From Bacteroidetes bacterium SW_4_67_19 (GTDB taxonomy: Bacteria > Bacteroidota > Rhodothermia > Rhodothermales > Salinibacteraceae): a DNA stretch of 35,900 nt. How positions within the stretch are numbered: position 1 is the first letter of the stretch; every line of letters starts with the position of its first letter. Below the pieces are notes generated by a model. The model was not told the DNA's origin. It was given only the letters and a program-made list of their open reading frames with translations, and did no database searches. Shown piece by piece: positions 32,604-34,940 of the stretch. Where the stretch lies: positions 1 to 35,900 of the forward strand of contig PXTX01000081.1 in NCBI GenBank assembly GCA_003023275.1, read 5' to 3'. Made by a program: the position numbers and the translations under genes.

Positions 32604-33575
32604 TCACCAGGACAGCTGCACGTCGGCGCGCAGGCGGTGATTGTCGAAGGCCGCGTCGCGGGCGGGCACGACGTAGTTGAACTGCACCTGCACGACGCTG
32701 GTGGGCCACAGGTTGTAGCCGGCGATCAGGAGGTCCGAGCCGGGGGCTTCGCCGAGGTCGCTCGTGAACGCGTCCCAGCGGAGGAGCACCTGCTGCCGCG
32801 CGCCGGAGGTCGGCAGGTCGTAGCCGAGCGTGACGTAGTGACCGAAGGGTTGCGGGGCGCCGCTGCCGTCGTCGCTCCGGTCGATGCGTCCGTAGATGGC
32901 CTCCGCGCCGAGGAGCCACGCGCCGCGGTCGACGTGCGCGTCGGCCCCCAGCAGCAGCTTACTGCCGACGGCTTCGACGTCGGCGGGGGGCGCGGTGCGG
33001 CCGTTGCCGTTGAAGATGCCGCCTTGCAGCGTCACGCCCGGCGTGGGGCTGACGGCGGCGCTGATGCCGACGTGCCGCCGGGGGACCAGCGCGCCGATCA
33101 CCTGCGGCCGGCCCACGAACTTCACGTCGGGGGCGGAGACGAGGTATTCGTAGCTGAAGGGCGCCTTGAACAGGCCCGCGCTCCCGCCGAACCCGTCGGT
33201 AGGCTCGTAATTGACCACGGCGTCGAGCAGCGCGATCTGGCGCGAGAAGTCGGTTTGCAGCTTGTAGCCCCAGCCGCCGTCGAGCGTGCCGCCGGCCTTG
33301 AGGCGGGCCTTCGCCAGCTGAAAGCCGTTGACGCCGTTCGGGCGCTCGGGCTGGAAGTCGGCCACGCCCTGCACGAGCGCACCGAGGCTGAAGTATTTGT
33401 TCTTGAGCGCATTGTTGAGATCGTTCAGCAACGGCTCTTCGACGGATTCCTCCGCCTCGTCGCCGCTGCCGCCATTGCCGGACGCGGACTGCGCCGCGGC
33501 GTGCGGTGCGAGCGGAAGGGCGAGCGTGAGAGCAAGCGCGAAAAGAGCAGTGGAAAAGCGGGTAAGCGTTCGCAT
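32604..33575 (-). CDS. Outer-membrane porin of the phosphate-selective porin O/P family
   Basis: A 323-residue barrel protein. The signal peptide is RFSTALFALALTLALPLAPHAAAQ. The mature part has KNKYFSLGALVQGVADFQPE, FQLAKARLKAGGTLDGGWGYKLQTDF, LDAVVNYEP, SAGLFKAPFSYEYL and a C-terminal FNYVVPARDAAFDNHRLRADVQLSW ending in an aromatic residue, typical of beta-barrels. The family name comes from Pseudomonas OprP/OprO, but specificity is not predictable from these motifs. It follows the rhodanese lipoprotein by 59 bp on the same strand with no terminator between, so both are probably under the Cys-leader attenuator. A sulfur-containing anion is therefore as plausible a substrate as phosphate. 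Confidence 0.85.
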   Translation of the reverse strand: MRTLTRFSTALFALALTLALPLAPHAAAQSASGNGGSGDEAEESVEEPLLNDLNNALKNKYFSLGALVQGVADFQPERPNGVNGFQLAKARLKAGGTLDGGWGYKLQTDFSRQIALLDAVVNYEPTDGFGGSAGLFKAPFSYEYLVSAPDVKFVGRPQVIGALVPRRHVGISAAVSPTPGVTLQGGIFNGNGRTAPPADVEAVGSKLLLGADAHVDRGAWLLGAEAIYGRIDRSDDGSGAPQPFGHYVTLGYDLPTSGARQQVLLRWDAFTSDLGEAPGSDLLIAGYNLWPTSVVQVQFNYVVPARDAAFDNHRLRADVQLSW

Positions 33576-33634: not shown

Positions 33635-34723
33635 TCAGCGTCCGCCGCCGGAAACGCCCTGCGCGGACCCTTGCGCGTCGCCGGTCACGATGGGGGTATC
33701 CTCGCGGTTGCCCCAGTCGTGCCAGCTGGCGTCGTAGACGGCCACGTTTTCGTAGCCGAGGTCTTTCATCACGAGGTAGTTCTCGCTGACGCGCGTGGCC
33801 GTCTGGCAGTGAAGCACGTAGGTCGTGTCTGCTTTCGCGGAGAGGCCCTTCTCGTCGAGCACGGCCTGCGCCTTCTGCGGCGAGAGCGTGGTGCGGTCGG
33901 GCCAGTGCATCAGGTCACTGTAATTGACGCGCACCGCGCCGGGGATGTGGCCGCCGCGGTCGTTTTTGCGCGCGTTCTCGCCGGTGTACTCCGCCTTCGA
34001 GCGCGTGTCCACGATGACCACGTTCTTCTTGTCGAGCGCGGATTTCACTTCCTCGGTCGTCCAGAGGAAGTTCTTCTGCGGATCGGCCGTGAAAGAGGCT
34101 TCCGAAAGCGTGCGCGGCTCGGTGGAAACCTCGTAGCCGGCCTGCTTCCATTGCTGAAGGCCCACGCCGTCGAGGAAGTGGGCGTCCTCGTGGCCGAGCC
34201 AGCGCAGCAGCATGACCGGCAGCGTGCCCGTCTTGTTGCCCCCGTAGTCGCCGTAGACGACCACGCGGCTGCTGTCGTCGATGCCGTTCTTCGAGAGAAA
34301 GCGCTCGTAGCGCGCCACATCCGGCTTGTTGCCGCCTTCGGTGCGGAAGATGTACTTGCTGGGGCCTTCGCCGGGGGAGCGGCTGGGCGTGCGCCACTGG
34401 CTGCCGGGCACGTTGACGGCGCCGGGAATGTGGCCGGCTTCGTATTTTTTAGCAGGCCGCGCGTCTACGATAACGAGGTTCGATTCGCTCGCTTTCCAGT
34501 TTTTGAGCGTCGGGGCGTCGATGAAGGCGTCCCAGGAGCCGGCCGCGTCAGCCGCCGAAGCCGCTTTCGCTTTCGAGGCGGCGTCGGCCTTTTCGGCAGA
34601 GTCCGCCTTTTCAGCGGAGGCGGTGCGGTCGGGAGAGCACCCGCCGAGGCTGCCGACGAGGACCGCACCGGCGAGCAGGAGGAGAGAAAAAAGACGAAGA
34701 GGGGGGGAAGCGTGCGTACGCAT
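33635..34723 (-). CDS. Double-rhodanese sulfurtransferase lipoprotein
   Basis: A 362-residue thiosulfate/3-mercaptopyruvate-type sulfurtransferase. A lipoprotein signal (LLLLAGAVLVGSLGGC, lipidated C29) is followed by an Ala/Lys/Asp repeat linker (SAEKADSAEKADAASKAKAA) and two rhodanese domains. The N-terminal domain (NLVIVDARPAKKYEAGHIPGAVNVP) has lost the catalytic Cys: RVVVYGDYGGN. The C-terminal domain (VVIVDTRSKAEYTG, GHIPGAVRVNY) keeps it: C306 in TYVLHCQTATRVSENY. Lipidation places it at the inner or outer membrane facing the periplasm. It would transfer sulfur from thiosulfate or a similar donor. The gene is preceded by a five-Cys leader peptide and an attenuator, so expression is probably induced by cysteine shortage; the OprP-type porin follows. 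Confidence 0.93.
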   Translation of the reverse strand: MRTHASPPLRLFSLLLLAGAVLVGSLGGCSPDRTASAEKADSAEKADAASKAKAASAADAAGSWDAFIDAPTLKNWKASESNLVIVDARPAKKYEAGHIPGAVNVPGSQWRTPSRSPGEGPSKYIFRTEGGNKPDVARYERFLSKNGIDDSSRVVVYGDYGGNKTGTLPVMLLRWLGHEDAHFLDGVGLQQWKQAGYEVSTEPRTLSEASFTADPQKNFLWTTEEVKSALDKKNVVIVDTRSKAEYTGENARKNDRGGHIPGAVRVNYSDLMHWPDRTTLSPQKAQAVLDEKGLSAKADTTYVLHCQTATRVSENYLVMKDLGYENVAVYDASWHDWGNREDTPIVTGDAQGSAQGVSGGGR

Positions 34724-34785: not shown

Positions 34786-34825
34786 GAAATAAAAAACCCG
34801 CTCACCTCACGGGGAGATGAGCGGG
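34786..34825 (-). terminator. Attenuator: intrinsic terminator between the Cys leader peptide and the rhodanese gene
   Basis: On the minus strand, CCCGCTCA (34818-34825) pairs with TGAGCGGG (34797-34804), and an inner CTC/GAG extends the stem, with a CCCGT loop. TTTTTTATTT follows at once. The 5' arm overlaps CGCTCATC (34816-34823), which can instead pair perfectly with GATGAGCG inside the leader ORF (34877-34884), an antiterminator. It is 60 bp upstream of the rhodanese start, so as a plain terminator it would silence the operon; that argues for regulation. Confidence 0.85.
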
Positions 34826-34856
34826 CGGCCAAAGGGCCGGGGAAGCGGCGGGCTCG

Positions 34857-34940
34857 TCAGCGAGCGTCGCCGTCGTCGCTCATCGCGCGGGGGGGAGGCG
34901 TGGTCGTCCCACAGGGACAACAACAGCAACACACACGCAT
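34857..34940 (-). CDS. Cysteine-rich leader peptide (27 codons), putative cysteine attenuator
   Basis: A short ORF beginning MRVCCCCCPCG: five consecutive Cys codons (TGT TGC TGT TGT TGT), then Pro and a sixth Cys, followed by a Thr/Pro-rich stretch and a stop. It lies 134 bp upstream of the rhodanese lipoprotein, ahead of an intrinsic terminator. Leader peptides with runs of the regulated amino acid are the hallmark of ribosome-mediated attenuation, and polycysteine leaders are known to control sulfur operons in actinobacteria. A ribosome stalled at the Cys run would leave GATGAGCG (34877-34884) free to form the antiterminator; one that reaches the stop would cover it. The frame is open upstream, but without similarity to anything. 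The mechanism is inferred from sequence. Confidence 0.75.
   Translation of the reverse strand: MRVCCCCCPCGTTTPPPRAMSDDGDAR

Follow-up and report, generated by a model that had tools for sequence, protein, structure and literature searches.

We propose that the cysteine-rich short ORF on the minus strand of the window – the whole stretch of 35,900 nucleotides that we analysed – is the leader of a ribosome-mediated transcription attenuator, which would read the supply of charged Cys-tRNA and form part of a cysteine regulon centred on the cysM operon. As judged from the sequences, we put the probability of this reading at roughly 0.86. Ribosome-mediated cysteine attenuation, as put forward in the original prediction, is supported by an architecture conserved in relatives and by leader-specific pairing of the RNA segments, and the window leader is probably one member of a family-wide cysteine-supply switch.

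The leader and the genes around it

A 27-codon poly-Cys ORF is followed on the minus strand by a strong intrinsic terminator, just as originally described, and all the coordinates given for these elements proved correct (Table 1). The leader has six Cys codons (codons 4–8 and 10, that is, five consecutive ones and then PC), five of which are TGT; six Cys codons out of 27 make up the cluster for a single amino acid that is typical of an attenuator leader ORF. The ATG start remains putative because the leader frame stays open further upstream. Segment 2 lies within the ORF, 5' of its stop codon, and we confirmed its perfect 8-bp pairing with the 5' arm of the terminator. The terminator (–21.5 kcal/mol, with a 13-pair stem when the outer pair 34826-34796 is included, or 12 pairs from 34825-34797) sits between the leader ORF and the structural gene, as it does in attenuators.

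Table 1. Features of the window leader and its neighbouring genes (window coordinates).
Feature	Position	Strand	Remark
Leader ORF MRVCCCCCPCGTTTPPPRAMSDDGDAR, 27 codons	34940 (ATG) to 34857	minus	no recognisable Shine-Dalgarno sequence seen before the ORF; start putative
Stop codon TGA of leader ORF	34859-34857	minus	
Putative regulatory Cys codons TGT TGC TGT TGT TGT CCC TGT	34911..34931	minus	cluster kept in 53 related leaders
Segment 2, predicted antiterminator strand GATGAGCG	34877..34884	minus	8-bp perfect complement of 34823-34816
Small hairpin GCTCG-CTGA-CGAGC between segments 2 and 3, stop codon in loop	34852..34865	minus	predicted fold
Segment 3 CGCTCATC, common to antiterminator and terminator 5' arm	34816..34823	minus	
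Intrinsic terminator stem-loop (segments 3:4)	34796..34826	minus	covarying stem in 33 leaders
Terminator U-tract TTTTTTATTT	34787..34796	minus	
Rhodanese, lipobox (LGGC), active-site Cys in HCQTATR; putative regulated gene	33635..34723	minus	PF00581 7e-35
Porin_O_P outer-membrane porin; second gene of putative operon	32604..33575	minus	PF07396 8.5e-12
Gene 5' of leader, runs off contig end	35057-35899	minus	no Pfam or NCBIfam match

The genes 3' of the leader have the identities first assigned to them, a lipoprotein rhodanese (by its rhodanese domain and lipobox) and then a porin, and their control by the leader is predicted. The rhodanese is a protein of 362 aa with two rhodanese repeats; it can be aligned to the solved sulfurtransferase 1e0c, and the HCQT motif is present in both. 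An aminotransferase adjoining the operon is 60–75% identical to homologues of the same order, which places the contig in the order to which it is assigned. We also looked for a promoter between the terminator and the rhodanese, which would speak against the proposed control: nothing promoter-like was found there, although the regions 5' of the leaders showed no recognisable promoter either, the search in these giving no excess over shuffles.

The original prediction proposed to look for the conserved leader upstream of orthologous lipoprotein rhodaneses. The genomes searched contain no close ortholog of the window's lipoprotein rhodanese (the best match is about 35%), nor an ortholog of the rhodanese-porin pair in which the leader association could be checked, but leaders are conserved mainly before cysM operons and before a cytosolic-type sulfurtransferase unlike the window's rhodanese. 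Since there is no close rhodanese ortholog, we tested conservation through other genes with the same type of leader. One lipoprotein rhodanese gene from another order (L175, G134) is preceded by a mini-ORF, MCCRCLE, with an AAGGAG-like site; no terminator was seen there, and the occurrence could be due to chance.

Related leaders before cysteine and sulfur genes

When we first looked for the regulon through TGYx4 sites, five genomes gave a single sseA leader and nothing else; this approach performed poorly because many leaders have interrupted Cys runs, and a gapped pattern and a covariance model (CM) served better. The pattern search, which covered 22 genomes, asked for three Cys codons with a suitably spaced T-run; its matches lie before operons for cysteine synthase, before sirohaem synthase and before a sulfone-monooxygenase-like operon. 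When cysM was surveyed across the order (114 genomes), 41 loci emerged, and at 38 of these a Cys-rich mini-ORF and a terminator were found by script (35, plus G002, plus G021 and G100). Outside the 38, one locus has a leader with a GTG start that was seen by eye (G103), one is without a leader (G055), and the third is G046. The genes of the cysM operon, as judged by NCBIfam matches several of which score under their equivalog cut-offs, encode a cysteine synthase, a JAMM desampylase-like protease, a SAMP1/MoaD-like carrier and a MoeB/MoeZ-like (ThiF) activating enzyme, a set that we take to be the carrier-protein cysteine pathway known from mycobacteria. In mycobacteria, too, cys operons have poly-Cys leaders, which act by a different mechanism. 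At the cysM locus of one genome (L219/L228, G003) segment 2, GGGAGAAGAC, pairs perfectly just 5' of the terminator and not with its 5' arm; as the pairing site differs, the switch there may work differently.

A poly-Cys mini-ORF and a terminator also precede 14 sseA-type sulfurtransferase genes in several families of the order (examples are MCCCCCRKPKGAVPRRSQAR, from a congeneric genome, and MTSPARTSCCCCVSAGRGRSAWFMTCSH, from another genus), including the sseA gene of the window's own genome (G000, at C29). In most of these leaders the segment just 3' of the Cys run pairs with the terminator 5' arm over up to 12 bp; the pairing is weak in a few (G032 and G000 C29). None of the sseA relatives examined in other orders of the class has such a leader. 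The Salinibacter-like genus g8 (L002, L004–L006, L009 and L010) carries conserved Cys-rich leaders, CLCSCLCG...SCRG, some 400–490 nt 5' of sseA and without an intrinsic terminator, and its genomes have the full attenuator before cysM. Very short leaders of the form MCCCR..., followed by a terminator, stand before an operon made up of an ORF of no assigned identity and a gene for an SfnG-like dimethylsulfone monooxygenase in two genomes (L212 and L220, in G012 and G006).

Membership of the window leader was judged with a CM built on 27 cysM leaders, the window leader being left out. The top match of this model in the window is the leader under study (26.3 bits, E 3e-7), followed by a runner-up of 10.8 bits (E 0.012). 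In the window's genome the leaders of cysM and sseA score best and the window leader comes third, with two non-leader matches close behind; the genome has three poly-Cys leaders (cysM, sseA and rhodanese-porin). The matches at G000 C66 and C82, and the weaker ones that we inspected, are not poly-Cys leaders; they fall into antisense or coding sequence, ordinary terminators and a SAM riboswitch terminator. Across 24 genomes, the cysM leaders are followed in the ranking by sseA, sirohaem and sulfone leaders.

As a control, we looked for the architecture before a further 329 ORFs (250 aa or longer) from all the loci retrieved and found it before nine. All nine are previously unlisted cysM, cysK, sirohaem synthase or serine acetyltransferase genes, and as these are cysteine- or sirohaem-synthesis genes no false positive was seen; because sulfur genes are over-represented in these loci, this is a test of specificity and not a genome-wide rate. 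The genes behind the leaders include ones that lie in the pathway of the amino acid thought to be sensed (cysM operons, serine acetyltransferase and sirohaem synthase), and a link of the window's rhodanese-porin pair to the same pathway is plausible.

With a cut-off of E 1e-5, all CM matches in 196 genomes of the class fell within the order, except for one terminator-only match. In 198 genomes of the phylum the model found two further poly-Cys leaders with terminators, both distant: MSHQ...CCCCCCALPLERTVC before a peroxiredoxin-cysM pair (L319, G221) and MANCCCCCKTCQSEREACI before cysK (L318/L324, G304). Other families of Bacteroidota have Cys-rich mini-ORFs before serine acetyltransferase or cysK (L350 in G200, L333, L342, L335, L340, L341 and L346), some of them with no obvious terminator. 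We narrowly favour the broader view that these leaders reflect an ancient, undescribed cysteine-attenuation regulon of Bacteroidota, in which poly-Cys leaders and intrinsic terminators would control the carrier-protein cysteine pathway (CysM, a MoaD/CysO-like carrier, a JAMM protease and a MoeZ-like E1), and which in the window's lineage would have come to include an exported lipoprotein sulfurtransferase together with a porin that may import external sulfur. With dozens of loci in one Bacteroidota order sharing one architecture, and signs of it in other families, a cysteine regulon is defined by sequence alone; it predicts a role in cysteine supply for uncharacterised genes, namely the lipoprotein rhodanese, the porin and the sulfone monooxygenase operon, and offers testable targets that include cultivable Salinibacter-type organisms.

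Segment pairing, proposed mechanism and alternatives

We compiled 53 leaders and, for set-level statistics, used 39 representatives, one per genus and gene. Segment 2 of a leader pairs better with its own segment 3 than with the segments of other leaders (z –7.2, 0 of 100000 permutations among the 39 representatives). For 25 leaders tested earlier against shuffles, the combined p was 5e-17, which is not fully independent because the leaders are related. Compensatory changes are seen within genus g11, where antiterminator pairs go from CG to UA and from GC to AU, and 97.8% of the antiterminator cells are paired vs 36–58% when the alignment is slid; the pair counts for 2:3 are confined to this genus since segment 2 of different genera is not aligned by MAFFT. 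In 14 of 33 leaders, one pair of the terminator stem differs on both sides, UA being replaced by CG or GC. The spacing is also kept: the stop codon lies 28–38 nt 5' of the terminator in 47 of 53 leaders, and the distance from the Cys run to the stop is 51 nt in the window and 21–69 nt in the set, typically about 50. The Cys codons of the leaders are TGT in 214 cases and TGC in 79; in the window's genes the proportion is 3 to 9. The conservation in relatives that the original prediction called for – of Cys runs, of terminators and of leader-specific antiterminator pairing – was thus found. An antiterminator that is specific to its leader and shares the terminator 5' arm is a property of the set; taken alone, the 8-bp match of the window leader (p about 0.06 vs dinucleotide shuffles of the leader) is only suggestive, and the attenuator interpretation of this leader holds because of its relatives.

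We infer translation of the leader, stalling, termination, the direction of the response and a service of the rhodanese and porin to sulfur supply as follows. When cysteine is short, the ribosome would stall on the leader Cys codons, and segment 2 would pair with segment 3 as the latter leaves the RNA polymerase; this pairing would block the terminator hairpin and allow transcription of rhodanese and porin. The onset of segment 2, typically 5–15 nt after the Cys run and 25 nt in the window, is such that a stalled ribosome should leave the segment free. When cysteine is ample, the ribosome would pass segment 2 and reach the stop codon between segments 2 and 3, where it would keep the two apart, so that the local 3:4 hairpin would fold and stop transcription. 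The stop codon often lies in the loop of a small hairpin between the two segments, a position from which a ribosome finishing the leader would separate them. In one respect this departs from the original prediction, in which the ribosome at high cysteine simply covers the antiterminator segment: segment 2 lies 18–40 nt 5' of the stop codon, which itself is in or beside the intervening hairpin, and a ribosome at the stop would therefore not simply cover it.

Timing would be set through the coupling of ribosome and polymerase. Equilibrium folding of the window leader with ribosome masks favours the terminator in all three states modelled, with the ribosome on the Cys codons, with the ribosome at the stop and with no ribosome (P at least 0.98), so that switching in this leader must be kinetic. 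Constrained folding of other leaders gave the expected switch in G007, G033 and G045, and the opposite in G006.

The lack of a clean equilibrium switch in the window leader would also suit a different account, in which cysteine is sensed but control is mainly translational or Rho-dependent, as proposed for actinobacterial poly-Cys ORFs, and the intrinsic terminator is a side feature. The terminator-less Cys-rich sseA leaders of the Salinibacter-like genus point the same way. Against it, a strong terminator with a U-tract follows the stop codon at constant spacing in nearly all of the 53 leaders, the terminator stems covary and the antiterminators are leader-specific; we consider this account improbable. 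Very improbable, too, is that the hairpin merely terminates the upstream gene (35899-35057) and that the Cys ORF is accidental. That gene is on the same strand, no other strong terminator was seen after it in the window, and the chance expectation for the 8-bp match has been given above; moreover, TGYx4 runs are no commoner than a reversed-pattern control in five genomes, which means that the Cys run alone is no evidence. Yet the upstream gene is divergent at 27 of 49 homologous leaders (by a longest-ORF criterion), whose terminators therefore cannot serve it, a CM trained on other loci recognises the window leader, and the control scan finds the architecture only before sulfur genes. Hardly credible, finally, is a Cys-rich peptide or nascent chain that senses metal or redox state, or stalls at PPP, instead of reporting Cys-tRNA charging: Cys clusters could bind metal (Cys-rich copper-responsive leader peptides exist), the window leader has a PPP stretch and one distant leader precedes a peroxiredoxin, but PPP is not common to the other leaders, most of the genes controlled serve cysteine synthesis, and the arrangement of the Cys residues is free to vary (CCCCC, CRCWCRCC, CTCCC) with constant codons and genes, as one would expect if it is the codons that count and not a peptide motif.

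Comparison with known systems

The attenuation by Cys-tRNA supply that we favour would be a mechanism of a known kind, and its regulon and targets appear undescribed within the literature that we searched and Rfam. The claim that no such poly-Cys leader has been described for Rhodothermia-like genomes stands within the same bounds: that literature yielded no account of cysteine leaders from Bacteroidota, Rhodothermia included, and neither the window region nor eight related loci gave an Rfam match at the gathering score. Sub-threshold Rfam matches to sRNAs were judged to be chance.

The SAM riboswitch (RF00162) is likewise a cis-acting RNA that controls sulfur amino-acid genes, but acts through a ligand-binding aptamer and has no leader ORF. 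The window's genome contains a SAM-I riboswitch of this family (L300, 2734-2919 on the minus strand at C20; 78.6 bits) with a terminator before a metY-like gene, and the organism would thus use separate RNA switches for methionine and cysteine genes.

Cysteine leader-peptide attenuators had previously been known from actinobacteria and also from Rhodobacterales, where they precede one gene. The Rhodobacterales case is the uORFC-8-2 motif, a leader of cysS with tandem Cys codons and an intrinsic terminator, for which attenuation by uncharged tRNA-Cys was proposed (PMC8632094). Our leaders share with it the short tandem-Cys ORF followed by an intrinsic terminator. However, uORFC-8-2 is found before cysS only, in one alphaproteobacterial order, and usually has two Cys codons at positions 14-15, whereas here there are mostly 3–6 clustered Cys codons, before other genes and in another phylum; the window leader neither precedes cysS nor has two Cys codons at about 14-15. 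The actinobacterial poly-Cys leader ORFs are similar in being short, in containing consecutive Cys codons and in standing before cysteine and sulfur operons, but their Cys run is near the stop and they lack conserved terminators (PMC1262725); translational or Rho-dependent control has been proposed for them (PMC1262725; Canestrari et al. 2020, cited in PMC13236596). Our leaders, in contrast, have both an intrinsic terminator and an antiterminator paired with it, and typically some 50 nt separate their Cys run from the stop; the window leader, with its terminator and distant stop, is not of the actinobacterial type. Within the same phylum, leader-peptide attenuators have been suggested for amino-acid operons of Flavobacterium psychrophilum, the consulted portion of that paper naming no cysteine leader or sulfur genes (PMC9723704).

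The classical trp and his attenuators also combine a leader ORF carrying regulatory codons with mutually exclusive antiterminator and terminator at fixed spacing. Unlike in these, the amino acid is cysteine, segment 2 is inside the ORF and the stop codon falls between segments 2 and 3, a geometric variant that is open to direct test.
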